From Paraburkholderia sp. ZP32-5 (GTDB taxonomy: Bacteria; Pseudomonadota; Gammaproteobacteria; Burkholderiales; Burkholderiaceae): a stretch of 64,000 nucleotides of DNA. Position 1 is the stretch's first letter. Every line of letters begins with the position of its first letter. Made by a program: the position numbers and the translations under genes. The DNA lies in assembly GCF_021390495.1 (NCBI RefSeq), contig NZ_JAJEJP010000003.1, forward strand, positions 1,054,001 through 1,118,000, read 5' to 3'. The notes under the pieces are model-generated. The model had not been told where the DNA came from. It did not search any database and saw only the letters and a list, made by a program, of their open reading frames with translations. This document shows positions 48,893 through 64,000 of the stretch, piece by piece.

Positions 48893-49788
48893 ACATTTCG
48901 AACGACGTCCCGCCCACCATCATGCGCGCAGCCGATGCAGCCGGGCCATCGTCCAGCCTTTCCGGCGAAGCGGCGCGGCCGGGCACCGAAACAGTCCTGC
49001 AACTCAACGGTATCTCGAAGTCGTTCGGCGAGAATAAAGTGCTGCGCGACGTGTCGCTCACCGTGCACAAGGGCGAGACCGTGTGCCTGCTCGGACCTTC
49101 GGGTTGCGGCAAGTCGACGCTGCTGCGCTGTGTGAACTGGCTTGAAATTCCCGACGCGGGCACGGTCCATGTGTCAAACCGGCGCATGGGCGTGCGCGAA
49201 GGCTCGTCCATCAAGATGAGCGACGCCGAACTCGCGCGTTCGCGTGCGCGCATCGGCATGGTGTTTCAACACTTCGCGCTGTGGCCGCATCTGACGGTGC
49301 TGCAGAACGTGATGGAAGCGCCTTTGCATGTTCTCGGTCGATCGCGCGACGAAGTGAGTGCGGAAGCGCAACGGCTGCTGGAGCGCGTCGGTCTCGCGGG
49401 CAAGATGGATGCGTTCCCGTCGCGGCTGTCGGGCGGGCAGAAACAGCGCGTGGGCATCGCGCGCGCGCTCGCGATAAAGCCCGACATCCTGCTGTTCGAC
49501 GAACCCACCAGCGCGCTCGACCCGATGCTCGTCGGCGAAGTGCTGCACGTAATGCGTTCGCTCGCGCAAGAGGGAGCGACGATGGTGATCGTCACGCACG
49601 AGATGGAGTTCGCACGCCAGGTAGCAAGCCGGATCGTGTTCATGGATGCGGGCCAGATCGTCGAGACAGCGCCGCCCGAGCAGTTCTTCAGCGCGCCGCA
49701 AACGCCGCGCGCGCGGCAGTTTCTTGCACGTTTTCGCGCGCCGCATCAGACGGCCGACGACTGCAGCGAGACCTCGAAGCTCGCCTGA
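48889..49788 (+). CDS. ABC transporter ATPase, polar amino acid type
   Basis: 299 aa from the ATG at 48889; the frame open further upstream is inside the permease gene. Walker A GPSGCGKST, signature LSGGQKQR, Walker B ILLFDEPTSALDP and switch His in VTHEMEFARQ are intact. An N-terminal extension of about 38 residues is unusual for this class. The operon ends here at a strong hairpin. Confidence 0.95.
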   Translation: MNISNDVPPTIMRAADAAGPSSSLSGEAARPGTETVLQLNGISKSFGENKVLRDVSLTVHKGETVCLLGPSGCGKSTLLRCVNWLEIPDAGTVHVSNRRMGVREGSSIKMSDAELARSRARIGMVFQHFALWPHLTVLQNVMEAPLHVLGRSRDEVSAEAQRLLERVGLAGKMDAFPSRLSGGQKQRVGIARALAIKPDILLFDEPTSALDPMLVGEVLHVMRSLAQEGATMVIVTHEMEFARQVASRIVFMDAGQIVETAPPEQFFSAPQTPRARQFLARFRAPHQTADDCSETSKLA

Positions 49789-49840: not shown

Positions 49841-50671
49841 TCATTGCGGTGCGGCCATGTCCGCTGCCTGCTTCACTTCACCGTCCTTATATTTGCCCCA
49901 CGTTTGCGCGAGTTCGCTCATCGAGCGCGGATCGCAATCGTATTCGGGCAGCGTGTCGGCGTCCCAGTGATCAAAGCGGTCGACGCCGCGCACGAGCGTC
50001 GCGCGACGCCGGCCCGAGGCCGAGCGGACATGCGCCGGCACGTAGAAGAATGCGAAGCCGATACGTCGGTCATCCGAACGATTCGGCAACGAACTGTGCG
50101 CGGTGCGTTCGTGATGCATCGAAAATTCACCCGGCTGCAGCGGCATTTCGACGGCGAGGTTCTCGTCGATACCGACAAGCGTCTGCCCTTTCGCGAGCAT
50201 GTTGTCCTTTGCGTAGGTTTCGACGTGCTTCAGATCAGGGCCGCTGTGTGAACCGGGCAGCACGCGCAGCACACCGTTGATCGAATTCGCGGGTGTGAGC
50301 GCGACCCACACCGTCACTTCCTCATGCGGCGTGAGCCCAAAATAGGTCGAGTCCTGATGCCACGACACATAACGCGGATCGCGTCCGTTCTTCGCGAAAA
50401 TGGACGCGCCGAACAGCATGATGTCCGGCCCAATGAGATCTTCGACAGCATCGAGAATGACGGGATGACGCGCGAGCTCGACGATAGCGGGCAGCGCCAG
50501 ATGACCCTTGATTTTCAGCGTCTTGTTGACGTCCTCGCCGGAAGACGCCTCGTATTGCTCGACGATGCGTCGATATTCCGCGGCCTCTTCCGCGCTGATC
50601 GCGCGCATCGGGTAGACATAGCCGTGCTGTTTGAAATGCGCAACCTGCGCTTCGCTCAAGTGCTTCGTCAT
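49841..50671 (-). CDS. Phytanoyl-CoA dioxygenase (PhyH)-family Fe(II)/2-oxoglutarate oxygenase
   Basis: 276 aa. The iron-binding His105 and Asp107 are in SWHQDSTY; the distal His is probably His192 in HHERTAHSS, and an Arg in DRRIGFAF could hold 2-oxoglutarate. PhyH relatives hydroxylate varied small molecules, not only phytanoyl-CoA. AAGGAAC precedes the ATG at 50671. It is the last gene of the nine-gene minus-strand operon, 73 bp after the amidase. A side chain or N-alkyl group of the pathway substrate is a plausible target, by inference. Confidence 0.88.
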   Translation of the reverse strand: MTKHLSEAQVAHFKQHGYVYPMRAISAEEAAEYRRIVEQYEASSGEDVNKTLKIKGHLALPAIVELARHPVILDAVEDLIGPDIMLFGASIFAKNGRDPRYVSWHQDSTYFGLTPHEEVTVWVALTPANSINGVLRVLPGSHSGPDLKHVETYAKDNMLAKGQTLVGIDENLAVEMPLQPGEFSMHHERTAHSSLPNRSDDRRIGFAFFYVPAHVRSASGRRRATLVRGVDRFDHWDADTLPEYDCDPRSMSELAQTWGKYKDGEVKQAADMAAPQ

Positions 50672-50744
50672 CGACGTTCCTTTTGGTGTGCTTCAATCGG
50701 AGAACCGCTTTGCTCATCCATCGCCAGGCAACGTCCCGGCGAGA

Positions 50745-51947
50745 CTACCGCATGGCTTCGTGCACCGCGCGTGCGGCGCGCAGCACACCTTCGTCCGAGC
50801 CGCGCGCGCCGATCAGCGACAAGCCGACGGGCGCGCCCTCGAAGCTCGTCCACGGCATGCTGACTTGCGGCAGGCCTGCGAGGCCCGCGACGCACAGCAT
50901 CTGCTGCGAGCGCGAGCGCGCGCGATCGACTGCTTCCGCTGAAGCATCCGCGCGGGGCGCGATGCCGGGCACGGTCGGCACGAGCCAGTACGTGCCTTGC
51001 GGCAGCGCATCGGCCATCGCGCGGATCGCTTCTATGCGAACGCGCTGCGCGTCGGCGACCTGTTCGCGGGTGACGGTCCGGCTCATCGCAAAGCGCGCGC
51101 CGACGTCGGGCCCAAGGCTCGCGGCGTGCTCGTGCGCCCATGCGCCATAGCGTTGCGCGATTTCCGCCGCTTGCAGCACGCGAAATGCCTGAGCCCAATC
51201 GGCAAGCGACGCCTTGGGCTCGACGAACGTCACCGCGTCGCCGAGTGCCGGCAGCGATGCTTCGAAGCGCGCCAACACCGGCGCATCGACGCAGGCAAGC
51301 AGGTTGCGCGGCACGTGCAGGCCGAACGGTTCGTCGCGCTCCATAACGATGCTGCGCGCCAGCACTTCGAACACATCGGCGAGCCTGCGAGCGTCCCTCG
51401 CAAACCAGCCGACCGTGTCGAAGCTGTGCGCAAGCGTGAGACAGCCGTCCGTCGCGATGCGCCCGTGTGTGGGCCGCATGCCCCACACGCCGCAATAGCT
51501 CGCCGGCAACCGCACCGAGCCGCCGCAATCGGTGCCGAGCGCGATGTCCGCGTGCTCCGCCGCCACGGCCACCACCGATCCCGACGACGATCCGCCCGGA
51601 ATGCGCGCGGGATCGGCGGGATTGACGGGCGTGCCATAGTGCGCGTTCACGCCGGCGAGGCTGTAGGTCAGTTCATCGGTGACCGTTTTACCGATCCATT
51701 GCGCGCCTTCTTCGAGCAACGCGCGAACAGCCAGCGCCGTCCTGGCGGCGACCGGCTGTTCGTCGCGCCATGCAATATTGCCGCTGCCCGTACGAAGCCC
51801 GCGGATATCGAACACGTCCTTCACCGCGATGCGCAGGCCCGCGAGTTTGTCGCCCGAGCACAGCGGCCGCGCGCCGGCAGGCAACGCATCGAAGCCGTCG
51901 GCAACGAAGGCCCCGTGCAGCCCCGGCTGCAGCAGATCGTTTTGCAT
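50745..51947 (-). CDS. Amidase-signature-family hydrolase (AtzE/HpxY-like)
   Basis: 400 aa from the ATG at 51947, which overlaps the preceding stop; the frame from 52013 lies inside that gene. The Ser-cisSer-Lys triad is visible: Lys43 in IAVKDVFDIRG, the GGSSSGS loop at 118-124 and nucleophile Ser144 in GTDCGGSVRLPAS. Pairing with an AtzH-like gene mirrors atzE-atzH and hpxY-hpxZ, whose amidases act on carboxybiuret or oxalurate-type ureides. The small AtzG/HpxX partner normally found with such amidases is absent here. Substrate therefore uncertain. Confidence 0.88.
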   Translation of the reverse strand: MQNDLLQPGLHGAFVADGFDALPAGARPLCSGDKLAGLRIAVKDVFDIRGLRTGSGNIAWRDEQPVAARTALAVRALLEEGAQWIGKTVTDELTYSLAGVNAHYGTPVNPADPARIPGGSSSGSVVAVAAEHADIALGTDCGGSVRLPASYCGVWGMRPTHGRIATDGCLTLAHSFDTVGWFARDARRLADVFEVLARSIVMERDEPFGLHVPRNLLACVDAPVLARFEASLPALGDAVTFVEPKASLADWAQAFRVLQAAEIAQRYGAWAHEHAASLGPDVGARFAMSRTVTREQVADAQRVRIEAIRAMADALPQGTYWLVPTVPGIAPRADASAEAVDRARSRSQQMLCVAGLAGLPQVSMPWTSFEGAPVGLSLIGARGSDEGVLRAARAVHEAMR

Positions 51948-52336
51948 CACGACGGGTCCATCCAGCTGACATGCGCCGCGACCACGCGCCATTGCCCGTC
52001 GATCCGTATCCACGTCTGCGACTGCCGCCCGATGCGCGCCTCGCCTTCGCGCGTGAACGCAATGTTCGTGACGGCGAAGTCCGCCCCGAAGGTCGTCACC
52101 GATCGACTCACGATCGTGCGCATCAGTCCCTTGCCCGGGCGCTGCGCACGAAAATCGCGGATCGCCTCGTAGCCATGCAGGTTTTCCGTCGCGCCGAAGC
52201 GCAGCGTATGCGTGCTGTTCCAGAAGAGCGTGTCGAGCACGGCAACATCGTTGGTCGTGAGCGCGAGCTCGTATTGATCGGATACGGCTTCGACGGCCGC
52301 GAGCGTCTCGGGATCGTTAACCGGCTCTACGCTCAT
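51947..52336 (-). CDS. AtzH/HpxZ-like (DUF3225, SnoaL-fold) protein
   Basis: 129 aa. The fold pattern (YELALTTNDVAVLDTLFWNSTHTLRFGATENLHGYEAIRDFRAQRP, ending IDGQWRVVAAHVSWMD) is the AtzH/HpxZ branch of the NTF2/SnoaL superfamily. AtzH was reported to hydrolyse 1,3-dicarboxyurea; HpxZ belongs to oxalurate breakdown in Klebsiella. It overlaps both neighbours (DUF1116 stop, ATGA; amidase start, TGATG). Together with the amidase it points to a ureide-type intermediate. Confidence 0.85.
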   Translation of the reverse strand: MSVEPVNDPETLAAVEAVSDQYELALTTNDVAVLDTLFWNSTHTLRFGATENLHGYEAIRDFRAQRPGKGLMRTIVSRSVTTFGADFAVTNIAFTREGEARIGRQSQTWIRIDGQWRVVAAHVSWMDPS

Positions 52337-53526
52337 ACGGCATCACCCGATAGTGTGGTCAGTGCGCGCGCGAAGAGTTCGGGCGGGGCCGCGTAAAGGC
52401 CTCGGCCCAGCAAGCCCGCGTGTCCGTCGGCGCCGATCATTGCAATCGCGGCAAGGGGCGCGATACCTTCCCGAACCACACGCGCCGCATCCAGCACTCC
52501 GGGCAATCCGTCGAACGCGGGATGTGGACCTGTATGGATGCGCGCTTGCCGATCGCGCCACCCCGCCGGCAGGTATGTCTCGAACGCTTGCGCGGATTCC
52601 GGCGCGAACGCGAGCGCCTGCGCACCGAAACCTGCCGCGTCGATGACGCCGCTGTCGCCCGTGAGCAACGCGGCGGCTGTCTGCTGTTGTGGATCGATGC
52701 GGGGCCCCTCCGGCGCGTGCGCAGCGGCGGTAACCCAGCGCGACGGGGCGCCCGCGAGCCGGATACCCACGCGTTCTCCGTTGCCCGCCAGTGCCACGAC
52801 GAGCGTCGACGCGGAGTGTCCATCGCTCGCGGCCGCCGACAGCATCAGCGCGCATCCGGCCATCCAGAGCGTCAGAAAAAAGAGCGGCGTCTGCGCCAGC
52901 ATCGCGTCGACTTCCCCATGATCCAGACGCGAGGCGAGCAGCGCGCGCAACGCGGCGGTCGCGCCCGTGGTGCGCGCATGGAGGTCGTCGCCGTTATCGA
53001 GACCGGCTCGCGCCAGTGCGAGCAGATCGACTGGACCTCGCGCGAGCGCTTCGTCGAGCGCGGGCGCGAGCACCGCGTCACGCCACTTCATGCGTTCGAG
53101 TATGCGTACATCGCGGCTGCCGAAACGGATTTGCGGACCCGCGCCGCTGCCGAGCAACGACCACGCGCGGGCCGTGGGATCGTTCGCATCCGCGACTTCG
53201 ACGAGCATCGTGCGCGGAGAAACGACAGCCGCGAGCGGCGTCACCACGCCATACGCCTGCGCACATTCGAGGCGCACGTCGCCTTGCTCGATCAGGCGTT
53301 CGGCCTGAGCTTCGTCCTTCGCCCAGCCTTCGTACAGGCAGCACAGGACCGCCGACGAGCGCACGGGCACCGAAGGCTTGCGCGGATCGTCGAACGAAGG
53401 CCCCGCGTGCAGCAGCGTGAAGTCCGGAAGCCGCACCGCGTCGCACGCCGCCACGACGCCGCGCCATTGCGGACGGACCGCATGCACGCGGCTTAGGGCC
53501 AGCACGTTAGCATCGTTGGCGCGCAT
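52333..53526 (-). CDS. DUF1116 protein (AllG/YlbE-like)
   Basis: 397 aa from the ATG at 53526, 2 bp after the CoxG stop. DUF1116 landmarks are DFTLLHAGPSFDD, VLCCLYEGWAKDEAQAERLI, VVSPRTMLVEV, GPQIRFGSRDVRILERMKW and GNGERVGIRLAGAPSRWVTAAA. AllG of this family is one part of the oxamate carbamoyltransferase (AllFGH), which splits oxalurate into oxamate and carbamoyl phosphate. The FdrA/AllF and AllH partners are not in this operon. It may act alone, use unlinked partners or do a different reaction on a carbamoyl compound. Confidence 0.85.
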   Translation of the reverse strand: MRANDANVLALSRVHAVRPQWRGVVAACDAVRLPDFTLLHAGPSFDDPRKPSVPVRSSAVLCCLYEGWAKDEAQAERLIEQGDVRLECAQAYGVVTPLAAVVSPRTMLVEVADANDPTARAWSLLGSGAGPQIRFGSRDVRILERMKWRDAVLAPALDEALARGPVDLLALARAGLDNGDDLHARTTGATAALRALLASRLDHGEVDAMLAQTPLFFLTLWMAGCALMLSAAASDGHSASTLVVALAGNGERVGIRLAGAPSRWVTAAAHAPEGPRIDPQQQTAAALLTGDSGVIDAAGFGAQALAFAPESAQAFETYLPAGWRDRQARIHTGPHPAFDGLPGVLDAARVVREGIAPLAAIAMIGADGHAGLLGRGLYAAPPELFARALTTLSGDAV

Positions 53527-53528
53527 GG

Positions 53529-54188
53529 TCAGCGGCTTGCGAAGCTGAAGAGTCCGCGCAGGCGCGACCACAGGATTCTCCAGAACAGGTTGCCGACATC
53601 GAGCGGCGCGTTGGCCGGCCGCGCTTCCACACGCGGCGTGGGCACGTCGGCTTCAGGATCGGGCAACGCCGTTGCAGCGGCTTCCGGCACGACGGGCGCA
53701 AGCTCTCTTTGGACAGCGTCGCTGCTAGCCGCCGCGCCCGCTTCCTGCAGCTTCGCCTTGAGATTGTCCGCGAAGGCCTCGGTCAAACGCGTGGCCAGTT
53801 CCTTCACGATGCCGCCTCGCGAGAACTGCGCGAGGCTGCCGCTGATCGCATAATCCACCTTCACGTCGACGCGCGTTTCGCGCGCCTGCGTCTCTCCGAG
53901 CGCGAACGACGCCACGCCCTTGACGCGAGACGCGCTCTTGCGATCCACGCCGGTTCCGGTGATGCTGCCGCAATGCTGAGCGTCATCGAGCTTCATTTCA
54001 CCGTCGCCTGCGAACGAAGCGACGATCGGCCCGAGCTTCACGGTCATTGCGAGCTTGAGCATCCCATTGTCGACGGGCGTCGCGAGCGATGCACCCGGCA
54101 GGCATGCGACGATACCGGGCGTATCGTGAAAGCGCGCCCACACGGCGTCGCGGGGATAAGGCACGGTGAAGCTTTGTTCGATTTCCAT
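53529..54188 (-). CDS. coxG: CoxG-type SRPBCC protein
   Basis: 219 aa. The CoxG core is MEIEQSFTVPYPRDAVWARFHDTPGIVACLPGA, then MTVKLGPIVASFAGDGEM and VDYAISGSLAQFSRGGIVKELATRL. The last 50 residues are Ala/Pro-rich and variable and end in a hydrophobic, basic tail. CoxG anchors or helps mature molybdenum hydroxylases at the membrane. It follows the three hydroxylase subunit genes with a 25-bp gap. Confidence 0.9.
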   Translation of the reverse strand: MEIEQSFTVPYPRDAVWARFHDTPGIVACLPGASLATPVDNGMLKLAMTVKLGPIVASFAGDGEMKLDDAQHCGSITGTGVDRKSASRVKGVASFALGETQARETRVDVKVDYAISGSLAQFSRGGIVKELATRLTEAFADNLKAKLQEAGAAASSDAVQRELAPVVPEAAATALPDPEADVPTPRVEARPANAPLDVGNLFWRILWSRLRGLFSFASR

Positions 54189-54213
54189 AGTGCGTCGGTC
54201 CGTATTCGATGAT

Positions 54214-54732
54214 TCAGGCAGTCACTGCAAGCGGCGCCGGGGCGGCCGTGAGCGCAAGGCGCGCATCGAGCACTCGTCGAATTGCGCGCACGATGCCCAC
54301 ATATCCGGTGCAGCGGCACAGGTTGCCCGATAGTTCGAGACGCACACGCGCGTCATCGGCGTCGGGCAGGCGGGTGACGATATCCCGTGCGGTCACCAGC
54401 ATGCCCGCCGTGCAGTAACCGCATTGCAGCGCGTGCTCGGCCGTGAACGCGGCGCGCAGCTCATTCATGGTCCGGTCGTCGTCGAAGCCTTCGATGGTGC
54501 GCACCGCACTGCTCGCGCAGCTGATCGCCGGCGTGATGCAGGAGCGTGTCGGCACACCGTCCACGTCGATCGTGCATGCGCCGCACACGCCCTGCTCGCA
54601 GCCGATGTTGGTGCCGCACAGCATGCGCTGCTCGCGCAGAAAATCCGCGAGGCTGGTGCGCGGCTCGACGCGGTCCGCGACGGGAACGTGATTGACGACG
54701 AGTTCAATTGTCTCGATGAATGCGCCGTTCAT
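54214..54732 (-). CDS. Molybdenum hydroxylase small subunit, two [2Fe-2S] clusters
   Basis: 172 aa. The plant-type cluster site has CGTNIGCEQGVCGACTIDVD, with a further Cys in VPTRSC. The second cluster has CGYCTAGM and GNLCRCTGY. These are the hallmarks of CoxS/XdhC-type subunits, passing electrons from the Mo centre to FAD. It overlaps the FAD subunit gene by ATGA. Confidence 0.94.
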   Translation of the reverse strand: MNGAFIETIELVVNHVPVADRVEPRTSLADFLREQRMLCGTNIGCEQGVCGACTIDVDGVPTRSCITPAISCASSAVRTIEGFDDDRTMNELRAAFTAEHALQCGYCTAGMLVTARDIVTRLPDADDARVRLELSGNLCRCTGYVGIVRAIRRVLDARLALTAAPAPLAVTA

Positions 54733-55565
54733 GATGCTTTCCCGTTCTGATTGCGAATGCCCGCCGCCGCGCGCACGAGCGCGACGCGATGCACTTCATG
54801 TTCGTAGCTATCCGCTTCGATGCCCGCCGCTTCGAGATGTACATCGAAACACGCTGTGTCCGGATCGGCGTCGCGCAGCAACACGCGGGCATCGTCGATT
54901 GCGTAAGGCGGCGCATCGATAGCGCCGATTACCGCACGGCACACGCCGCGTGCTGCGTCGTCGATGAACACGGCAATCGCCTCCGCGAATTCGCCCGGCT
55001 TCCGGTTGACCTTGTAGTAGCTCCAGCGCGCCGTCGGCGAGAGCCGCGCAAAGCGCACGCCTGTGAGGATCTCGTCCGGTTCCAGCGCGGTCGTGAATGC
55101 GCCCGCCATCCACGCGCGATTGCCGATCGTGCGCGCGCCACCCGGCCCCGCGACGAGAAAGGTTGCATCGAGCGCGCACATCGTATTGATCCAGTCGGCA
55201 GCGGGATCGGCATGCGCGAGACTACCGCCGAGCGTGCCGCGATTGCGCACCGCGCGATAGGCGATACCGCCCGCGACATATTCCATGAGCCCACGCGTAC
55301 CGGTTTCGACCTTGCCGTCCTCGATCTCCGCATGCGTGACGCACGCGCCGAGCGTGACGGTTTCGCCTTCGACGCAGCATGCGCGCAACGCCGCGATGGC
55401 GCGCAGATCAACAAGCATTTCCGGCTGCGCAAGCCGCAGGTTCATCATCGGTCCAAGCGACTGGCTGCCTGCCACGAATTTGCCCATGCCTTCCGTGGGA
55501 CTGATGAGCGCGATCGCCTCATCGCAGGCTGCCGGCTTTGCATAATCGTAGATAGCGGCTTTCAT
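54729..55565 (-). CDS. Molybdenum hydroxylase FAD-binding medium subunit
   Basis: 278 aa. FAD-binding features of CoxM/XdhB-type subunits are FVAGSQSLGPMMNLRLAQPE near the start and RNRGTLGGSLAHADPAADW in the middle (the family's TIGG-type loop as TLGG). The C-terminal domain follows. Translationally coupled to both neighbours. It accepts electrons from the iron-sulfur subunit. Confidence 0.93.
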   Translation of the reverse strand: MKAAIYDYAKPAACDEAIALISPTEGMGKFVAGSQSLGPMMNLRLAQPEMLVDLRAIAALRACCVEGETVTLGACVTHAEIEDGKVETGTRGLMEYVAGGIAYRAVRNRGTLGGSLAHADPAADWINTMCALDATFLVAGPGGARTIGNRAWMAGAFTTALEPDEILTGVRFARLSPTARWSYYKVNRKPGEFAEAIAVFIDDAARGVCRAVIGAIDAPPYAIDDARVLLRDADPDTACFDVHLEAAGIEADSYEHEVHRVALVRAAAGIRNQNGKAS

Positions 55566-57970
55566 GCGGGCATTCCTTTGCGCGTATCGGCTTGCCGCGC
55601 ACGCGGCCTCGCGAGGGCTTCGACAATCAGACGCGGCGTGATGGGCAACTGGTCGATACGCACGCCGAGTCCGCGCAATGCATCGTTGACGGCATTGGCG
55701 AGCGCGGCGGGCGGACCGATCGCCCCGCTTTCGCCGATGCCCTTCTGCCCGAACTCCGTATAAGGCGCCGGCGTCTCCATGTGTTCGATGCGAATCGCGG
55801 GCACCTCTGTCGCGCCCGGCAGAATATAGTCGGCGAGCGTCGAAGCGAGCGGCTGGCCGTCCTCGCTATAGGGCATGGCTTCATAGAGCGCCGTGCCGAT
55901 ACCTTGCGCCGCGCCGCCGTAAACCTGTCCATCGACGACCATCGGATTGATGAGCACGCCGCCGTCTTCCACGATCGCGTAATCGAGGATTTCGGTCTGG
56001 CCGAGCGCCGGATCGACCGCAACGACCACGGCATGACATGCATAGCTGAAGGTGCCCGAATCGCGTTTTGCCTGATAGGACGTCGAGACTTCGAGGCCGC
56101 GCGGGTCGACGTCGGGCGGCAGCAATTGCGGCGCGAGATACCACGTGCGCGCGATCTCCCGCAAGGTGCGCCGCCCCGCCTTACCGACCACCGCGCCGCT
56201 TTCCCAGCGCACTTCGCTGATGGGTTCCCGTAGCAGATGCGCGCCGATTTTCATCAACCGCTCCCTGAGTTCCTTCGAAGCGCGGCCGACTGCTCCACCC
56301 GCCATCACGATCGAGCGCGAGCCCCACGTTCCGGTGGAGTACGGCGTGACGCCCGTGTCGCCGAGCACGATGCGCACGCGGTCCGTGTCGATGCCGAGCA
56401 CTTCGTGGGCAATCTGCGCGAGCGTGGTCTCCATGCTCTGCCCATGCGAATGGACGCCCGCGCGCACTTCGAGCACGCCGTCTGGCGTGAGGCGGATCAC
56501 AGCGGGCTCGTAGCCCGGCACCATCGGAATGCCCCAGCCGTGATACACCGACGTCCCGTGCGCGCCCTGCTCGCAGAAGACCGACATGCCGAAGCCGATG
56601 CGCCTGCCGTCCGGCTCGCCGCGCCGCTGACGCGCGCGCACCGCGGGCAGGTCGATTGCGGCCATCGCACGGCGCACTGCCTCGGGATAGTCGCCGCTGT
56701 CGAAATGCTTTTTCGTGATGTTGTCGTAGGGCATCTCGTGCGGCTGCACGAGATTGCGCAGACGTACCTCGTAAGGTTCGAGACCCGCTTCGAGCGCAAT
56801 TGCATCCATGATCGTTTCGATCGCATAGCACACTCCCGTTCGCGCCACGCCGCGATAGGGAAGAATCGGCGGCTTGTTGGTTGCGACCGACCACGTGCGG
56901 CAGCGGAATCGATCCATCTTGTACGGTCCCGGCAGAATGCTGCCGACCTGCGCCGCTTCCAGGCACGCTGAAAACGGATATGACGAGTACGCGCCCGAAT
57001 CCACGTGCGCATTGCATTCGACCGCGAGCAAGCGGCCGTCGCGATCCGCATAGCCGGTGATGTCGTAATCGTGTTCGCGGCAATTCGCATTCGCGGTGAG
57101 CTGCTCGCGGCGGTCCTCGATCCAGCGCACCGGCTTTTCCAGTTGCATCGCGAGCCAGCCGCAGCAGACTTCCTCGGGCAGCAGAATGCCCTTGTAACCG
57201 AAGCCGCCGCCGACATCGGGGGCGATCACGCGTACCTGGCCTTCGTCGAGGCCGAGACATTCCGCGAGTCCCGTGCGCGTGATGTGCGGCATTTGCGCGG
57301 ACGTATGCACGATCAGTTGCGACAGGCGGCGGTCCCAGTGCGCGACGACGCCGCGCCCTTCCATCGGCGCCATGCTCTGGCGCGCGGTGCGCAACTTGCG
57401 ATGCACGCGGATCGGCGCATCGCGGCGAATGGCGTCGAGATCGACGTCGGGATTCGCATCGACGAAGGTTTCGAGAAACACGTTGTCGCCCCAGTGCTCG
57501 TGCACCAGCGCTGAATCTTCGCGACGCGCGTCGAGCATGTCGACCACGGCGGGCAGTTCCTCGAAATCGACGAAGACCTGCGCGGCGATATCCTCGGCCG
57601 CGGCGCGCGTCGCCGCCACGCACATCGCGATGGTTTCGCCGACCTGGCGCACCTTGCCGCTCGCGAGCACGGGTTGCTGCGAGCTTTTGAAGCCCGCCAG
57701 GCCCGAGTTCGCTACGATGGGCTTCACGCCCTCCAGATCGGCGAGCGTATAGACGGCGTGCGCGTGCGCTTCCGGCTTTTCGATCCCGACGATATGGCCA
57801 TGCGCAATCGGGCTGCGCACGAATGCCACGTCAACCATGCCGACCATGCGAATGTTGGGAACATATTCACCGCGCCCGTGCATGAAGCGTTCGTCTTCCT
57901 TGCGGGTCAGCGAGGCGCCGATGCCTTGCGGACGATGGATGTCGCTGCGTGTGTGGGGCCGTTTGATCAT
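55562..57970 (-). CDS. Molybdenum hydroxylase large subunit (form II, xanthine-dehydrogenase superfamily)
   Basis: 802 aa. Mo-cofactor regions include GGGFGYKG (about 254-261), the active-site loop PYRGVARTG (371-379) and the catalytic Glu in GQKGIGESGAIGPPAAL (about 740). True aerobic CO dehydrogenases carry AYRCSFR; form II members carry AYRGAGR. Here it reads PYRGVAR, so CO is not the substrate. Such enzymes hydroxylate carbon next to nitrogen in heterocycles or oxidise aldehydes. Lying with an amidohydrolase, amidase and AtzH-like gene, hydroxylation of an N-heterocycle is the likely job. It is 18 bp after the amidohydrolase. Confidence 0.93.
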   Translation of the reverse strand: MIKRPHTRSDIHRPQGIGASLTRKEDERFMHGRGEYVPNIRMVGMVDVAFVRSPIAHGHIVGIEKPEAHAHAVYTLADLEGVKPIVANSGLAGFKSSQQPVLASGKVRQVGETIAMCVAATRAAAEDIAAQVFVDFEELPAVVDMLDARREDSALVHEHWGDNVFLETFVDANPDVDLDAIRRDAPIRVHRKLRTARQSMAPMEGRGVVAHWDRRLSQLIVHTSAQMPHITRTGLAECLGLDEGQVRVIAPDVGGGFGYKGILLPEEVCCGWLAMQLEKPVRWIEDRREQLTANANCREHDYDITGYADRDGRLLAVECNAHVDSGAYSSYPFSACLEAAQVGSILPGPYKMDRFRCRTWSVATNKPPILPYRGVARTGVCYAIETIMDAIALEAGLEPYEVRLRNLVQPHEMPYDNITKKHFDSGDYPEAVRRAMAAIDLPAVRARQRRGEPDGRRIGFGMSVFCEQGAHGTSVYHGWGIPMVPGYEPAVIRLTPDGVLEVRAGVHSHGQSMETTLAQIAHEVLGIDTDRVRIVLGDTGVTPYSTGTWGSRSIVMAGGAVGRASKELRERLMKIGAHLLREPISEVRWESGAVVGKAGRRTLREIARTWYLAPQLLPPDVDPRGLEVSTSYQAKRDSGTFSYACHAVVVAVDPALGQTEILDYAIVEDGGVLINPMVVDGQVYGGAAQGIGTALYEAMPYSEDGQPLASTLADYILPGATEVPAIRIEHMETPAPYTEFGQKGIGESGAIGPPAALANAVNDALRGLGVRIDQLPITPRLIVEALARPRARQADTRKGMPA

Positions 57971-57988
57971 CGTATGAGCCTCGCGTTC

Positions 57989-59251
57989 TCAGGCGGCGCG
58001 CGCGAGCGGCAGCGTCGGTGAGACAGCGTCGTGACGCACGCCGTCGCGCAGGCAGAAAAGCGGCGACAGCATGCGCTCGGCGATGACCTGCGTGCCTTCG
58101 TTGTCCTCCAGAATCCAGCGGCCACGACGGTCGTCCAGCACGCTGATGTCCGCGCCCCGCCCCACTTGCAGCGAGCCGATCTGATCTTCCATGCCGACCA
58201 TCTTCGCTGCGTTGCAGGTCGCCATCGCGACGACGTGCTGCAGCGGCAGGCCGAGCGCGAGCATGCTGGTCATCGCGCTGACGAGACTGAACTGCGTGCG
58301 GCCGAGGAACGAGTGTTCCTCGTCGGGATGGCTGTCGGGCGTGCCGGCGGGCGCGGGTACGTGCGTGTTGTAGCCGTGCATGTCGGCGCCGAGCGTGTCG
58401 GGCACGACGCCCGCATCGAGCACGATGCGCGCCGTCTTGAAGCTGAAATGCGAACCATGACCGACGTCGATCTTCAGGCCACGCGCGACCGCTTCATGCA
58501 CGAGCGGATGCACTTGCCCGTTCTCCTCGACGAAGCCGCCCGGATGACGGCTGAACGGATGCGCGAGGATATCGCCGGGCTTGAGCGTCTCGACCACCTG
58601 ATTGAAGATGGAATCGGCTTGCACCGGCAGCCCGCCGCTTTCAGGCTTCGGCCACAGCTGGCCGAAGTGGATATACAGCGGCAGTTCAGCGCCATGGCCG
58701 ATCTTCGCGGCGATCTTCATCACGTCGAGACCCCAGCGCGCGAAGCCGCCGATTTCAGCGTGGGCCTTGATGCCCTTGACCAGATCGGCATTGGCGCGGA
58801 TCGACTTGATGGTTGCGTCAACGTCGAGACATTCGGGGCGATACAGGTCCGGGTAGTAGTGACCTTCGAGCCCGCCAACGAGGTAAGCGGAAATGAAGGC
58901 CAGCACGCGCGTGGCCGAGCGTTCCGCCACGTAATGCCGGAAGCCAGGAATCGTGATGCAGCTTGGTCCGCCCTGATCGATGATTGTCGTCACGCCCGAT
59001 TGCACGCCGCACTGATCCGCGTTGAGGCCGAAGCGGCCCGTGACGTACTGATAGACGTGGCTGTGCGTATCGATAAGGCCCGGCAGCACGAGCTTTCCGC
59101 TGCAGTCGAGCACCTCCGCCTGGCGCGCGTGAACCGCAATATCGGAGCCGATCCCGGCGATGATGCCGTTGTCCACCAGAACGTCGAGCGTGGCGTCGAT
59201 CTTCTGGGCCGGGTCGACGACGCGGCCCCCTTTCAGCAGAACTTGTGACAT
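57989..59251 (-). CDS. Amidohydrolase-superfamily (dihydroorotase/deacetylase-like) metallohydrolase
   Basis: 420 aa. The metal-binding HxH motif occurs in LPGLIDTHSHVYQY, with GIKAHAEIG carrying a probable bridging Lys, followed by His in LYIHFGQ and DVGHGSHFS and Asp in GADMHGYNTH. This set fits the cyclic-amide-opening dihydroorotase/hydantoinase relatives or the deacetylase group. As first gene of the operon and next to the Mo-hydroxylase it could open a ring made more reactive by hydroxylation. Substrate unknown. Confidence 0.9.
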   Translation of the reverse strand: MSQVLLKGGRVVDPAQKIDATLDVLVDNGIIAGIGSDIAVHARQAEVLDCSGKLVLPGLIDTHSHVYQYVTGRFGLNADQCGVQSGVTTIIDQGGPSCITIPGFRHYVAERSATRVLAFISAYLVGGLEGHYYPDLYRPECLDVDATIKSIRANADLVKGIKAHAEIGGFARWGLDVMKIAAKIGHGAELPLYIHFGQLWPKPESGGLPVQADSIFNQVVETLKPGDILAHPFSRHPGGFVEENGQVHPLVHEAVARGLKIDVGHGSHFSFKTARIVLDAGVVPDTLGADMHGYNTHVPAPAGTPDSHPDEEHSFLGRTQFSLVSAMTSMLALGLPLQHVVAMATCNAAKMVGMEDQIGSLQVGRGADISVLDDRRGRWILEDNEGTQVIAERMLSPLFCLRDGVRHDAVSPTLPLARAA

Positions 59252-59282
59252 GTACGGTGCGATAGGCGAGTTGGAAGATGCG

Positions 59283-59292
59283 TGGTGTACCG
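59283..59292. promoter_or_regulatory. Candidate operator TGGTGTACCG near the amidohydrolase start
   Basis: Eight-base core GGTGTACC. The longer context ATGCGTGGTG-ACC is shared with the site at 46475-46489, upstream of the importer. Located where it could block transcription of the nine-gene operon. Confidence 0.55.
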
Positions 59293-59485
59293 CAAATTGT
59301 GTGCCGATTTTTCATCACCGCATGAATAGTCGAATTTTCCATTTTCAATCATGGAGTTATCGGGATGCATCGGTTGTAGATGCGTGCCGTACCACGGAGT
59401 TCTCCATTCACGCCTCGCACCAACTCGGACACAGCCGGAGCATGCCCGCACCATGTGCAAGCGCGATGCATTGTTATGGTGACTC

Positions 59486-59495
59486 GTTGGTGTAC
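59486..59495. promoter_or_regulatory. Candidate operator TGGTGTACCT near the MarR 2 start
   Basis: The nine bases TGGTGTACC are identical to those at 59283-59291, 203 bp apart on the same region. Suits autoregulation of MarR 2 or looping between the two sites. Confidence 0.5.
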
Positions 59496-59581
59496 CTCAT
59501 ATTTGCGACCGGCGATGAATTCGGCCTAGAATGCGCATTGAAGCGTCTTTCGCTCGCCCCTCTTTCTTCCGAGTCGCTTAC

Positions 59582-60148
59582 ATGCGAACCACTGTCACCG
59601 ATCACATCGACATCAAAAGCATTCGTGCAGAGCTTGCGGAACGGCAAGCGCGCTCGCCGCTGTTTTCGCGGCCGGGCTTTCTGATCCGCCGTATGCATCA
59701 GATCCACACGTTCCTGTTCGTGCAGGAAACGAGCGAATTCAACATCACGCCGGTGCAATACAGTCTGCTCACCGCGCTGGAATCGCTCGGCGAGATGGAT
59801 CAGAACTCGCTTGCCATCGAAGTCGGACTCGAGCGCTCCAGCGTCGCGGAAGTCATTCCGCGACTCAACGCACGCGGGCTCGTGACCCGCACGCAAGCCG
59901 CCCATGACAAGCGGCTGCGGCTCGTCAGGCTCTCGCCCGCGGGCAAGCGTCTGGTCAGAAAGATGGCCGACGCCGTGCAGCGCGCGCACGATCGCACCAT
60001 CGAGCATCTGTCGCCCGTCGAGCGGGATGTCTTCATGCTCCAGATGATCCGGCTGGTGGAAGCCAACCACTCGGACGACCTCGTGCCCTTCCGGCTGCCC
60101 GACAGCCAGTTGCTCGCACAGGACGAAAGCGAAGCCGACGCGCCCTGA
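59582..60148 (+). CDS. MarR-family transcriptional regulator 2
   Basis: 188 aa from the ATG at 59582; a longer frame from 59531 is possible. Winged helix: NITPVQYSLLTALESLGEMDQNSLAIEVGLERSSVAEVIPRLNARGLVTRT, wing AHDKRLRLVRLS. It shares RPGFLIRRMHQIH with MarR 1 (RPGFLIRRLHQIH), so the two are paralogues. They stand at the two ends of the importer-plus-catabolic-operon block. It is divergent from the nine-gene operon and likely controls it. Confidence 0.9.
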   Translation: MRTTVTDHIDIKSIRAELAERQARSPLFSRPGFLIRRMHQIHTFLFVQETSEFNITPVQYSLLTALESLGEMDQNSLAIEVGLERSSVAEVIPRLNARGLVTRTQAAHDKRLRLVRLSPAGKRLVRKMADAVQRAHDRTIEHLSPVERDVFMLQMIRLVEANHSDDLVPFRLPDSQLLAQDESEADAP

Positions 60149-60213
60149 TTTTTCCCGCTTGCCGGCGGCCTGCGTTTTTTGCGACGCGCGTTCCTTTGAT
60201 AAGCTCTTCGGTC

Positions 60214-60996
60214 ATGCCAGACATCAAGCTGAACATGACGCCCGACGAGCGCCCTGCTATCGCGCCACACGCGACGCTCACACGGGCGGATCGCGTCTAC
60301 TACGCCCTGCGCGACGAAATCTTCGACATGCACCTTCTGCCGGGCGACCGGCTCACGGAAGGCGCCATCGCCGAACGCTTTGCGGTCTCGCGCACGCCCG
60401 CGCGAGAAGCACTGCAGCGCCTGCAAAGCGATGGCCTGATGCAAGGTTATGTGCGCGGCGGCTGGGAAGTCGTGCCGATCGACAACAAGCGGTTCGACGA
60501 TCTCTACGAGATGCGTCAGATGATCGAAACCTTCGCCGTGCGGAAGCTTTGCAACAGCGAAACACCGCCGCCCGGACTGCAGCTCCTGCTCGATGCGCTC
60601 GACCGCGTCTGGAACGTCGGGCGCGCGCGGCGCATCGCCGATGGCCGCAAGCTCGTCGAGCTGGACGAAGCATTTCACCATGCGCTGGTCGCGGCCGCGG
60701 GCAACGACGAACTGACTTCGACGATGCAGCGCGTCACCGATCGCATTCGTGTCGTGCGTCGACTCGATCTCGTACGCGGCGACGGCATCGCAGAAACGTA
60801 TGACGAGCACGCCGCCATTCTCGACGCCATTCGCCGCGGCGACGGCGCCCTGAGCGTCGAACGCGTGTCGCGTCACATTGGCGGCAGCCAGGCCAGCGTG
60901 CGCGGCCTCACCATGCAACGCCTGCTCGCCGCGCGCACCGCAGCAGGGCGTGAAGCCACCGCGCGCGCACCGGCGAGGCCTCGGCGCACCATCTGA
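60214..60996 (+). CDS. GntR-family regulator, FCD subfamily
   Basis: 260 aa from the ATG at 60214; an upstream in-frame TTG at 60196 and an ATG at 60235 are alternatives. Winged helix: YYALRDEIFDMHLLPGDRLTEGAIAERFAVSRTPAREALQRLQSDGLMQ. The FCD-type sensor has Asp/His positions in ELDEAFHHALVAAAGN and YDEHAAILDAI. The Ala/Arg-rich C-terminus is probably disordered. A TTGTATACAA site just upstream of the next gene fits the operator style of this subfamily. Confidence 0.92.
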   Translation: MPDIKLNMTPDERPAIAPHATLTRADRVYYALRDEIFDMHLLPGDRLTEGAIAERFAVSRTPAREALQRLQSDGLMQGYVRGGWEVVPIDNKRFDDLYEMRQMIETFAVRKLCNSETPPPGLQLLLDALDRVWNVGRARRIADGRKLVELDEAFHHALVAAAGNDELTSTMQRVTDRIRVVRRLDLVRGDGIAETYDEHAAILDAIRRGDGALSVERVSRHIGGSQASVRGLTMQRLLAARTAAGREATARAPARPRRTI

Positions 60997-61111
60997 CGAC
61001 GTAACCTGCCGTCGCTCCGGGTTCGCTGAGACAGCGCTGAAAGCCTTACCCGGCAAGCTTGATCAGGGTTTCCACCATGCCTTGGCACGGATCTCGCGTT
61101 GACTCCTTTCG

Positions 61112-61121
61112 TTGTATACAA
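61112..61121 (+). promoter_or_regulatory. Candidate GntR operator TTGTATACAA over the ribosome site
   Basis: Perfect 10-bp palindrome of the TNGT-N2-ACNA type, 11 bp before the ATG at 61132, and abutting the ribosome site AAGGAAA. A bound repressor would block the leader of the gamma-glutamyltransferase/antiporter unit. Confidence 0.6.
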
Positions 61122-61131
61122 GGAAACGTCA

Positions 61132-62763
61132 ATGCCTCTGGAACACGCGCACGTCGCGGCCAACACACTCAATCCCACACGCGGATCGCGCGGCATGGCG
61201 GTCGCGCCGCACTCGCTCGCATCACAAAGCGCCCTCGCCGTCCTGCGTGAAGGCGGCAACGCAGTCGAGGCGATGATCGCCGCCGCCGCGACCATCGCGG
61301 TGGTCTATCCGCACATGAACAGCATCGGCGGAGACGGCTTCTGGCTGATCTCGCGCCCCGGTTACGCGCCCATCGGCATCGAAGCGTGCGGCGCGGCGGC
61401 GATGCGCGCCGACATCGAAACGTATCGCGCGCTGGGCCTGAGCGCGATTCCCGCACGCGGTCCGCTCGCGGCCAACACGGTCGCGGGCACCGTGTCCGGC
61501 TGGGACTTCGCGCAGCGCTTCTCGAAAGACACGCTCGGCGGCCGCTTGCCCGTCGCGCGACTACTCGAAGACGCCATTCATTACGCGCAGAGCGGCGTTC
61601 CCGTCACGCGCAGCCAGGCCGAGTGCATCTCAAGCAAGCGCGGTGAACTGGAAAGCGTGGCGGGCTTCGCGCAAACCTTCTTGCCCGATTCAAGCGCACC
61701 GCGCAGCGGCGAGCGCTTTGTCAACGCACGTCTCGCCGCCACGCTCCGACAACTCGCCGATGCCGGTCTCGACGACTTCTATCGCGGCGATCTCGCGCGC
61801 AGCATCGCGAGCGATCTCGCGTCGCTGGAAACACTCGTCACGCTCGGCGATCTCGAACGGCACAGCGCCCGCGAACGCGCTCCGCTCGCCCTCAAGCACA
61901 CGCTCGGCACCGTCTACAACATGCCGCCGCCGACGCAAGGACTCGTCTCGCTGCTGATTCTCGGCGTGCTGGATCGCGTGCTCACCGACGACATGGACCC
62001 GCTCGGCCCCGAGTTCGTACATGCGTGCGTCGAGGCGACCAAGCTCGCTTTCAAGGTGCGCGACCAACACGTGACCGATCCGGACCATATGCGAATCGAT
62101 CCGGTTACGCAGCTCGGGCACGCGGCACTCGACGCGATGGCGAGCGAGCTGTCGATGTCGCACGCCGCGCCGTGGGGTAAAGGCCGTGGCCCTGGCGACA
62201 CGGTCTGGATGGGTGTCATCGATAACGAAGGTATCGCGGTCAGCTTCATCCAGAGCATCTATCACGAGTTCGGCAGCGGCATCGTGCTGCCGCAGTCGGG
62301 CATCAACTGGCAGAACCGCGGCTGCAGCTTCTCGCTCGATGCATCGTCGCTCAATCCGCTGATGCCGGGCCGCCGCCCGTTCCACACGCTCAATCCGGCG
62401 CTCGCCCAGTTCGCCGATGGCCGCACGATGGTCTACGGCAACATGGGCGGCGATGGCCAGCCGCAGTCGCAAAGCGCGGTGTTCTCGCGCATCGCGCGCT
62501 TCGGCTGGAATCCGCAGGCCGCGATCGATGCGCCGCGCTGGCTGCTTGGCCGCACCTGGGGCCAGTCCACCGATTCGCTCAAGCTGGAAGCACGCTTCCC
62601 GGCCGAGACCATCGACGCGTTGCGCGCGCTCGGCCACGACGTGGAAGTGCTCGCCGCCTACGACGAAGCGATGGGCCATGCAGGCGCAATCGTTCGCTAT
62701 CCCGATGGCTTGTTCGAAGCGGGAAGCGATCCGCGCAGCGACGGCGCCGCCGCGGGCTGGTAA
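61132..62763 (+). CDS. Gamma-glutamyltransferase-family (Ntn hydrolase) protein 2, possible oxamate/amide hydrolase
   Basis: 543 aa from the ATG at 61132 (AAGGAAA upstream). The family's first region is GMAVAPHSLASQSALAVLREGGNAVEAMIAAA; the self-cleavage/catalytic site is GPGDTVWMGVIDNEG with Thr357. No signal peptide, so cytoplasmic. The oxamate amidohydrolase HpxW of Klebsiella belongs to this family. With AtzH-like, amidase and DUF1116 genes nearby and an oxalate-type antiporter next, hydrolysis of an oxamate-like amide is plausible but unproven. It is only distantly like the homologue at 25962. Confidence 0.88.
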   Translation: MPLEHAHVAANTLNPTRGSRGMAVAPHSLASQSALAVLREGGNAVEAMIAAAATIAVVYPHMNSIGGDGFWLISRPGYAPIGIEACGAAAMRADIETYRALGLSAIPARGPLAANTVAGTVSGWDFAQRFSKDTLGGRLPVARLLEDAIHYAQSGVPVTRSQAECISSKRGELESVAGFAQTFLPDSSAPRSGERFVNARLAATLRQLADAGLDDFYRGDLARSIASDLASLETLVTLGDLERHSARERAPLALKHTLGTVYNMPPPTQGLVSLLILGVLDRVLTDDMDPLGPEFVHACVEATKLAFKVRDQHVTDPDHMRIDPVTQLGHAALDAMASELSMSHAAPWGKGRGPGDTVWMGVIDNEGIAVSFIQSIYHEFGSGIVLPQSGINWQNRGCSFSLDASSLNPLMPGRRPFHTLNPALAQFADGRTMVYGNMGGDGQPQSQSAVFSRIARFGWNPQAAIDAPRWLLGRTWGQSTDSLKLEARFPAETIDALRALGHDVEVLAAYDEAMGHAGAIVRYPDGLFEAGSDPRSDGAAAGW

Positions 62764-62874
62764 CGCCTCAGGCTGCATCGACCATGAAATGTTGTCTCAC
62801 GTCCGGTCCGGCGTTTCGTCGGACTGCAGGGCATTTCTCATTCTTCTGATTCGCAAGGTAACCGGGGAACGCAT

Positions 62875-64000
62875 ATGAACACACGCATCCAGACGATGCA
62901 CGACAATGCCGCCGCAAGCGCGCGCGCCGCCGCGACACATAATCGCTGGCTTCAGCTCGGCCTCGGCCTGCTCTGCATGATGGCCATCTCCAGCCCGCAA
63001 TACGTGTGGACGCTGCTGACCAAACCGCTGTCGGCAAAGCTCGGCGTGCCGCTGCCGGAATTGCAGGTGACCTTCTCGCTGCTCATCATCTTGCAGACCT
63101 TCTTTTCGCCGTTCCAGGGCAAGCTGATCGACCGCTTCGGTCCGCGTATCCTGATCTCGCTCGGCACGGTGATGTCCGGTCTGAGCTGGGTGCTCGCGTC
63201 GATGGCCACGAGCACAACGATGCTCTATCTCACGTACGGTCTCGTCGGCGGCCTGGGCACGGGTATCGTGTATGTCGGTGTGGTCGGGTTGATGGTGCGC
63301 TGGTTCCCGGACCGCCGCGGCTTCGCGGCCGGCGCGGTGGCAGCGGGCTACGGCATGGGTGCGATCGTGACCACGTTTCCGATCTCGGCATCGCTGGCGG
63401 CGCGCGGCATCGACGCCACGCTATGGATTTACGGCATTGCGTTCGCGATCGTGGGCTTCGTCGCGTCGCAGGGCCTGCGCGTACCGCGCGATGTGGCGCC
63501 GGCGAAAGCATCGGCTGACGCGGCCTCAAGCGTGCCGAACCTTCGTCCTTCGCAGATGATCAGATCGCCGCTCTTCTGGCTGATGTTCGCGATGATGACG
63601 ATGATGTCCACCTCGGGCCTCATGGTCACCTCGCAAATGGCAACCTTCGCGGCAGACTTCGGCATCACGAAGGTCGTCGTGTTCGGCATGGCCGCGTTGC
63701 CGCTCGCGCTGACCATCGATCGCTTCACGAATGGCCTTACGCGTCCGCTGTTCGGCTGGGTGTCCGATCACTTCGGCCGCGAAAACACGATGTTCGTCGC
63801 ATTCGGGCTGGAAGGCGTGGCGATGGCGCTGTGGCTCCTGACGCGCGACAATGCCGTGCTGTTCGTGCTGCTTTCGGGTGTGGTGTTCTTTGGCTGGGGT
63901 GAGATCTTCTCGCTGTTCCCGTCCACGCTCACGGATACGTTTGGCACCCGCCACGCCACCGAGAACTACGGCTGGCTTTACATCTCGCAGGGCATCGGCT
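62875..64000 (+). CDS. MFS transporter, oxalate/formate antiporter (OxlT/OFA) family, truncated by window end
   Basis: About 375 residues are visible from the ATG at 62875; the frame is open at the window edge. NRWLQLGLGLLCMMAISSPQYVWTLLTKPL at the start is the OFA/OxlT signature region. GKLIDRFGPR follows helix 2, and RPLFGWVSDHFGRENTMF lies in the middle loop. OxlT swaps oxalate for formate; relatives move other mono- and dicarboxylates. It is 111 bp after the gamma-glutamyltransferase-like gene. Export of oxalate or a similar acid made by the island is a reasonable inference. Confidence 0.88.
   Translation, partial: MNTRIQTMHDNAAASARAAATHNRWLQLGLGLLCMMAISSPQYVWTLLTKPLSAKLGVPLPELQVTFSLLIILQTFFSPFQGKLIDRFGPRILISLGTVMSGLSWVLASMATSTTMLYLTYGLVGGLGTGIVYVGVVGLMVRWFPDRRGFAAGAVAAGYGMGAIVTTFPISASLAARGIDATLWIYGIAFAIVGFVASQGLRVPRDVAPAKASADAASSVPNLRPSQMIRSPLFWLMFAMMTMMSTSGLMVTSQMATFAADFGITKVVVFGMAALPLALTIDRFTNGLTRPLFGWVSDHFGRENTMFVAFGLEGVAMALWLLTRDNAVLFVLLSGVVFFGWGEIFSLFPSTLTDTFGTRHATENYGWLYISQGIG

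Follow-up and report, generated by a model that had tools for sequence, protein, structure and literature searches.

A candidate nitrogen-regulated catabolic island for a nitrogen heterocycle, with an oxamate end and an exchangeable oxidising front end, in Paraburkholderia sp. ZP32-5

Several described bacterial systems resemble parts of the gene cluster considered here. The Klebsiella hpxWXYZ tail passes through oxamate as a late intermediate, and the atz cyanuric-acid pathway uses AtzE, AtzG and AtzH. The E. coli oxamic transcarbamylase requires AllF, AllG and AllH (PMC11326118). In riboflavin and lumichrome catabolism, as described in PMC12746152, a nitrogen heterocycle is oxidised by a xanthine-oxidase-like and a Rieske enzyme, both in one pathway. 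The cluster at issue occupies positions 49841-64000 of a 64,000-nucleotide stretch (the window; contig NZ_JAJEJP010000003.1, 1,054,001 to 1,118,000) of the 9.09-Mb, four-contig genome of Paraburkholderia sp. ZP32-5, whose closest named relatives among the plasmids compared belong to Caballeronia and Paraburkholderia. The cluster combines known enzyme families in a new way, and we believe, with somewhat more confidence than doubt, that it is a nitrogen-regulated catabolic island that degrades a small nitrogen heterocycle to oxamate, ammonia and oxalate.

Genes were called by codon composition, and families were assigned by Pfam and NCBIfam scans of the window proteins. Nine genes run along the minus strand from 59251 to 49841 and encode, in order, an amidohydrolase, the large, flavin (FAD) and [2Fe-2S] subunits of a molybdenum (Mo) hydroxylase, CoxG, a DUF1116 protein, HpxZ, an amidase and a PhyH oxygenase (Table 1). 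With starts placed by us, the successive gaps are 18, -4, -4, 25, 2, -4, -4 and 73 bases, and because the genes are so closely spaced a single operon is likely. Beside it on the plus strand lie genes for a MarR and a GntR regulator, an HpxW-like protein and an OxlT-type transporter. All the components that a preliminary description of this DNA had named at 49841-64000 are present in the gene calls and family scans. Its view that the set as a whole matches neither the hpx, the all nor the atz routes also agrees with the comparisons below, in which the AtzE cut-off is not reached and AllH is absent.

The genes recur together in many other bacteria. Searching genome contigs with an alignment of DUF1116 proteins yielded 74 loci besides the window, and neighbours within about 10 kb of the DUF1116 gene were tallied by phmmer bit thresholds against the window proteins, with loci at contig ends kept. 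The amidohydrolase was found at 54 of these 75 loci, the Mo-hydroxylase large, FAD and [2Fe-2S] subunits at 44, 47 and 48, CoxG at 46, the amidase at 37 (35 with HpxZ), HpxZ at 36, a binding protein of an amino-acid-type ATP-binding cassette (ABC) transporter at 34, PhyH at 20 and HpxW at 16. This grouping is not due to chance. Because its binding protein is so often close to DUF1116, the ABC transporter to the left (46660 to about 49788) belongs to the catabolic unit, which it widens in that direction, and it is the likely importer of the island compound. Loci with the set come from three proteobacterial classes, namely Beta (Burkholderiales and others), Gamma and Alpha (Azospirillum relatives), and record titles place operon relatives in soil, plant-associated and marine genera. 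Paraburkholderia xenovorans LB400 (L014) is one of the strains with the operon. A gene cluster with a DUF1989 representative, from a family that we take to be known from urea-carboxylase clusters, occurs at eight Burkholderiales loci (L019, L020, L021, L023, L024, L026, L027 and L059), and an NMT1/THI5-type binding protein lies beside the core in two relatives (L060 and L076). Some unlabelled gene clusters (for example c16) look like shadow open reading frames (ORFs) and were left uninterpreted.

To judge by gene content, the oxidising front end of the island is exchangeable, being either a Mo-hydroxylase or a Rieske oxygenase. At ten loci, all gammaproteobacterial (L032, L035, L036, L038, L040, L041, L043, L052, L057 and L058), a VanA-type Rieske oxygenase and a VanB-type reductase replace the Mo-hydroxylase, and these loci hold no match of any score to its large subunit. 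The two front ends occur together at none of the 75 loci (44 Mo, 10 Rieske), an overlap of zero for which P is 5e-5, or 4e-6 among the amidohydrolase loci, with P values that ignore relatedness. The exclusion covers about 10 kb on each side of DUF1116, so that an oxygenase elsewhere in the genome would escape it. It is strengthened by the presence of both types in Pseudomonas (Mo in L030, L033 and L051; Rieske in L032, L038, L040 and L041) and by the intermingling of the two types in the DUF1116 tree. Nine loci with the amidohydrolase and DUF1116 have neither front end at the thresholds used; three of them (L061, L063 and L065) hold distant Mo-hydroxylases (34-36%), and another, L062, whose contig is cut, has the reductase cluster but lacks a Rieske gene. 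At L076, also with neither front end, a short-chain dehydrogenase/reductase (SDR) and a 2-oxoglutarate oxygenase directly follow DUF1116. The Rieske protein is nearest in the PDB to SxtT/SxtDIOX and the methylxanthine demethylase NdmA, whose substrates are nitrogen-rich rings.

The island's own front end shares its three-subunit layout and CoxG partner with Mo-hydroxylases of the quinoline 2-oxidoreductase and carbon monoxide (CO) dehydrogenase type. The best PDB match of the large subunit is quinoline 2-oxidoreductase (1t3q, 487.6 bits), ahead of CO dehydrogenase (438.4). The motif AYxCSFR, which we take to mark the active site of CO dehydrogenase, is found in 0 of 49 large-subunit sequences and YRGVAR in 47 of them, so the enzyme is not a CO dehydrogenase; the CO-dehydrogenase models likewise give 551.2 bits against a cut-off of 950 and 471 against 991.15. 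A xanthine dehydrogenase operon was also rejected (XdhA, 381.8 versus 780; PucD, 265.3 versus 783.65). Large subunits are 77-97% identical to that of the window in 34 loci and 63-68% identical in 17 more. S. meliloti GR4 has its [2Fe-2S] subunit and a CoxG domain in one fused protein (L006, 6842-8053), an arrangement suggesting that CoxG has a working role in the Mo enzyme. Methylobacterium and Geminicoccaceae plasmids carry the amidohydrolase and Mo-hydroxylase with an alpha/beta hydrolase, and no DUF1116 is annotated in the stretch examined.

The DUF1116 protein is an AllG-family member, sharing 31.8% identity with its E. coli counterpart, yet the partners of AllG were not found. AllH (PF11392) has no match in the whole genome, with a positive E. 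coli control, and a single AllF (FdrA) query, taken from L081, gave one partial match (31%, residues 109-307 of 497) that is probably a succinyl-CoA synthetase. The absence of AllH and of a good AllF match rules out the island protein as a subunit of an AllFGH enzyme. In a tree of 46 DUF1116 proteins, midpoint rooted and with supports not inspected, the E. coli protein shares one branch with the AllF-linked proteins of L074, L075, L077, L079, L080 and L081 and with that of L073, where no AllF is labelled; the stand-alone proteins, including the island's, fall outside it. At non-proteobacterial loci (such as L074, L075 and L079-L081) DUF1116 lies beside an AllF-type gene, without the island set. 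Since its partners are missing and its branch is separate, the stand-alone protein presumably acts alone or with other island enzymes. Within the genus searched, DUF1116 occurs in 33 of 144 genomes, several of the matches scoring much higher and perhaps being of the AllFGH type; the island is therefore at most that frequent, and accessory. A Rhodococcus ruber plasmid (L087) holds a related but distinct cluster with two DUF1116 genes, two Rieske/VanB pairs, formate dehydrogenase and malate synthase G, neighbours that hint at formate and glyoxylate as products.

The oxamate end of the island is well supported by sequence comparison. The protein encoded at 61132 finds PDB 5hft, which we take to be Klebsiella HpxW, as its best match with both chains (A, 367.5 bits; B, 283.1 bits; next entry, 248.3). 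It is 61% identical to an ORF in an unannotated K. pneumoniae record, the nucleophilic threonine being aligned (putatively Thr368 of the 554-residue ORF), and the island HpxZ is 54% identical to a K. pneumoniae ORF, again unannotated. HpxZ also passes the NF033625 equivalog cut-off as the sole match in the genome. In the K. pneumoniae record the HpxW-like ORF is followed by amidase-matching and HpxZ-matching ORFs, an order (hpxW-Y-Z) that agrees with the hpx operon (PMC3560190). The island amidase, however, shares only 33% identity with the ORF in the HpxY position and scores 186.9 bits with the AtzE/HpxY model TIGR02715, whose cut-off of 425.75 is passed by no gene genome-wide (16 weaker matches). 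These comparisons and the family models indicate that HpxW and HpxZ are present but that the oxalurate amidase HpxY is replaced by an enzyme of the PRK08310 family rather than the AtzE family. No separate HpxX gene is among the called island genes, although no search aimed at HpxX was made. A complete hpx or atz tail was rejected. Compared with the Klebsiella tail, the island adds the Mo-hydroxylase, amidohydrolase, DUF1116 and PhyH; with the atz pathway it shares an AtzH-like fold and an amidase-signature enzyme, but the scanned island genes include no cyanuric-acid hydrolase family. The transporter passes the OxlT model (TIGR04259, predicted oxalate:formate antiporter), and another contig encodes an oxalyl-CoA decarboxylase (994.2 bits; cut-off 739.4). 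A second gamma-glutamyltranspeptidase-family gene (25962-27746; PF01019) lies well apart from hpxW, within a plus-strand run (18411-28506) that includes an ABC solute-binding protein.

Evidence on regulation comes from the upstream regions. An alignment of the amidohydrolase-MarR intergenic region from 17 loci, the window among them, shows strongly conserved blocks, one of which, CGGCAC-N5-TTGCG, is a -24/-12 sigma54-type site close to the form GGcacg-N4-ttGC given in PMC5491218. By sequence only, the island has the GG-N10-GC arrangement of such promoters. Sites scoring at least 10 of 12 precede 29 of 36 transporters (30 with a longer stretch), 17 of 53 amidohydrolases and 6 of 10 Rieske genes, against a background of 2.6% of random segments and 2.0% of shuffled upstreams. 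They are rare before internal genes (Mo large 1/56, FAD 0/51, [2Fe-2S] 0/56, CoxG 0/49, DUF1116 2/82, HpxZ 0/28, amidase 1/41). At the looser score of at least 9, which the window's operon site reaches, they lie within reach of 30 of 58 amidohydrolase genes, compared with 11% of shuffles over the whole stretch. Upstream TGGTGC half-sites, presumably NtrC-like, accompany 24 of 30 transporter promoters and 24 of 35 amidohydrolase promoters, against 13.5% at random. The palindrome GTGGnnnnCCAC stands before 18 of 30 transporter promoters, compared with 0.4% of random segments, but before only 2 of 35 amidohydrolases, and the TTGTATACAA box occurs upstream of hpxW at 5 of 17 loci, counting the window, the five all coming from Burkholderiales. 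Other palindromes were dropped because they lay inside coding sequence or were not conserved (1/31).

No sigma54-activator gene lies within 100 kb on the contig, and because the nearest is about 113 kb away a global activator is likely, most simply NtrC. The half-site enrichment, together with the lack of a nearby activator gene, suggests activation by NtrC under nitrogen limitation, and the predicted sigma54-type promoters point to use of the island as a nitrogen source. The MarR regulator has PcaV as its best PDB match, followed by 6pcp/6pco, which we take to be BpsR; a urate-sensing MarR is named by none of the 20 PDB matches listed, several of which have generic names. In Burkholderia cenocepacia, the sigma54/NtrC-dependent gene list, as given in PMC5491218, includes xanthine dehydrogenase, urate oxidase, allantoicase and dihydropyrimidinase.

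From these families and promoters we infer the following order of reactions. The ABC transporter would import the ring compound, and the Mo-hydroxylase, or the Rieske oxygenase in relatives, would oxygenate a ring carbon next to nitrogen, with CoxG probably assisting the Mo-hydroxylase in electron transfer to quinone; PhyH may perform a second oxidation. The cog3964-type amidohydrolase would open the resulting cyclic amide or imide, and DUF1116 and the amidase with HpxZ would cleave the linear product, a ureide or amide, to oxamate. This would then be converted by HpxW to oxalate and ammonia, and OxlT would carry oxalate across the membrane; the oxalyl-CoA decarboxylase encoded elsewhere in the genome may use it. 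As to the ring, a type such as imidazolone or hydantoin, degraded via a parabanate- or oxalurate-like intermediate, is a guess that is rather unlikely to be exact. It is favoured because opening such a cyclic imide gives oxalurate directly, and because the DUF1116, HpxZ and HpxW families are all tied to oxalurate or oxamate. We hold quite tentatively, with doubt outweighing belief, the broader proposal that this is an undescribed, widespread route for a common nitrogen heterocycle, in which a Mo-hydroxylase and an unrelated Rieske oxygenase are interchangeable first enzymes and the stand-alone DUF1116 protein is a novel enzyme that works on an oxalurate-like ureide, upstream of oxamate. The term DUF1116 occurs in 6 of 5.39 million open-access papers, and no description of this gene cluster was found in the titles and passages of open-access papers examined.

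The interpretation offered in the preliminary description survives in part. A catabolic island with an oxamate or oxalate end, and hydroxylation by the Mo enzyme, are borne out by the matches to HpxW, HpxZ, OxlT, oxalyl-CoA decarboxylase and quinoline 2-oxidoreductase. The assignment of ring opening to the amidohydrolase did not find support, its nearest solved relative being a presumed deacetylase (see below), nor did the idea that DUF1116 carries out the reaction of AllG. The exchangeable front end and the sigma54 promoter sites are features added here.

Several observations weigh against our interpretation as a nitrogen-regulated heterocycle island, some of them in favour of more specific alternatives. 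Of the NCBIfam models, a CO-dehydrogenase one gives the large subunit its highest score, which is still far short of the cut-off, and a Mo-hydroxylase resembling the island's (68%) sits in S. meliloti GR4 among a luciferase-like oxygenase, a CoA transferase and a pyridoxal phosphate (PLP) enzyme. PhyH is near only 20 of the 75 DUF1116 loci, and Roseomonas has the amidase with HpxZ in a different setting. Taken by themselves, the sigma54 sites of the window do not reach significance (for the transporter site, 1 found and 1.46 expected), and TGGTGC half-sites precede none of six Rieske promoters. The likeness of MarR to PcaV and 6pcp/6pco might indicate an aromatic or pyridine acid.

Retaining the same architecture, the ring could instead be six-membered, a pyrazine, pteridine or quinoxaline oxidised to a 2,3-dione (a cyclic oxamide) that opens to oxamide or oxamate. 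The quinoline 2-oxidoreductase likeness of the Mo large subunit favours such a ring, and riboflavin catabolism offers a precedent, since a xanthine-oxidase-like enzyme there produces a quinoxaline dione, which is opened in turn by a Rieske dioxygenase (PMC12746152). Those two enzymes act serially, however, whereas here the Mo-hydroxylase and the Rieske oxygenase are mutually exclusive. The scanned island genes include no catechol dioxygenase or hydratase, nor the P450, thiamine diphosphate (ThDP) enzyme and catechol dioxygenase of the riboflavin pathway, and HpxZ and the DUF1116 protein point to ureides. We consider a six-membered ring unlikely, although a pyrazine- or pteridine-type ring is a serious competitor of the imidazolone or hydantoin type.

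Slightly less likely again is that two unrelated modules merely adjoin in Burkholderiales, a MarR-controlled operon for a heterocycle or aromatic acid and a GntR-controlled oxamate module consisting of hpxW and oxlT. The genes GntR-hpxW-oxlT do stand apart from the island in P. largidicola and are on the opposite flank in L015, L016 and L025, and hpxW has its own candidate GntR operator and is near only 16 of the 75 cores. Yet at seven gammaproteobacterial loci (L030, L032, L033, L035, L041, L043 and L051) hpxW directly follows the amidase within the core operon, it also lies inside the Azospirillum cluster, and HpxZ, an hpx-family protein, sits within the core operon itself.

The amidohydrolase has 2ogj, a cog3964 member, as its nearest solved relative (144.7 bits, a moderate match), with metal-ligand positions aligned; we take 2ogj to be an acetyl-(R)-mandelate deacetylase and not a ring opener, and an arginine common to three solved relatives is histidine in the island protein. 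In a protein search with the amidohydrolase, at least 5819 of the 8000 proteins scored reached E <= 1e-40, and the 120 matches listed bear only generic names. A count of DxHxH (40/58) was not used, as it relied on a fixed stretch of ORFs whose starts are uncertain. A core for acylated hydroxy acids or aromatic acids, with an Atu3266-like deacylase and incidental nitrogen release, would suit the 2ogj match, the PcaV-like MarR and a more distant (43% identical) Massilia homologue among CoA-ligase and thiolase genes, but is improbable given sigma54-type promoters without a nearby activator gene, the presence of HpxW, HpxZ and the amidase, and the moderate score of the 2ogj match, in which the residue beside the lysine ligand differs.

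Table 1. Genes and predicted regulatory sites of the island and its flanks (window positions).
Feature	Position	Strand	Basis or remark
Operator-like palindrome TGCGTGGTGCACCACGTA, upstream of transporter	46476..46493	.	2 and 3 mismatches to amidohydrolase-promoter box
Predicted sigma54-type promoter TGGCATACCCCTTGCA of transporter operon	46563..46578	+	predicted from sequence
ABC solute-binding protein, family 3	46660..47568	+	PF00497; likely ATG 46699
ABC permease, amino-acid type	47592..48236	+	PF00528, TIGR01726
ABC permease, amino-acid type	48233..48892	+	PF00528, TIGR01726
ORF with putative ABC ATPase	48496..49788	+	ATPase from gene order shared with Caballeronia; start probably ~48889
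PhyH-type Fe(II)/2-oxoglutarate oxygenase	49841..50671	-	PF05721
Amidase-signature hydrolase, PRK08310 family	50745..52013	-	PF01425; NF006169 534.6 bits, cut-off 391; start ~51950
HpxZ/AtzH-like protein	51947..52336	-	NF033625 177.8 bits, cut-off 135
DUF1116 (AllG-family) protein	52333..53571	-	PF06545 200.5 bits, cut-off 27; start ~53526
CoxG (SRPBCC) protein	53529..54188	-	PF06240
Mo-hydroxylase small [2Fe-2S] subunit	54214..54732	-	PF01799
Mo-hydroxylase medium FAD subunit	54729..55565	-	PF00941
Mo-hydroxylase large subunit	55562..57970	-	PF02738/PF20256
Amidohydrolase-superfamily enzyme, cog3964/PRK09237 type	57989..59251	-	first gene of operon; NF006689 428.9 bits, cut-off 371
Operator-like box GCGGTACACCACGCA at operon start	59279..59293	-	related to transporter palindrome
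Predicted sigma54-type promoter CGGCACACAATTTGCG of catabolic operon	59291..59306	-	9/12 consensus positions
Two TGGTGC half-sites	59417..59453 (59448-59453 and 59417-59422)	-	GGTGC identical in 17/17 aligned loci, window included
MarR-family regulator	59531..60148	+	PF01047; divergent from operon
GntR/FCD regulator	60196..60996	+	PF07729 + PF00392
Weaker possible sigma54-type site TGGCACGGATCTCGCG before hpxW	61083..61098	+	5/15 loci including window score >=10; random 2.6%
Palindrome TTGTATACAA, candidate GntR operator	61112..61121	.	10 bases before hpxW ATG
HpxW-type N-terminal nucleophile (Ntn) hydrolase, gamma-glutamyltransferase family	61132..62763 (ORF 61099-62763)	+	ATG 61132; PDB 5hft match
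OxlT-type oxalate/formate major facilitator superfamily (MFS) transporter	62875..64000, continues to 64152	+	TIGR04259 368.3 bits, cut-off 335, on 375 aa inside window

Other genes of the region include, just right of the window (L003, 278-7965), a binding-protein ABC transporter with an isocitrate/isopropylmalate-type dehydrogenase and a two-part aconitase-family enzyme, probably another catabolic unit. Within the window, to the left of the island, are a VgrG-type type VI secretion gene (36924-40061) with a TsiV-type immunity gene one gene beyond (41423-42757), a large autotransporter with passenger repeats (31193-34816) and an EutA-like ethanolamine ammonia-lyase reactivase (7403-9004).

If the proposed heterocycle pathway is correct, it would constitute a new bacterial route for drawing nitrogen from ring compounds. 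It would also give a testable role to the orphan DUF1116 family and to a clade of cog3964 amidohydrolases, and would illustrate clearly how two oxidising enzymes that are unrelated can feed one downstream pathway.

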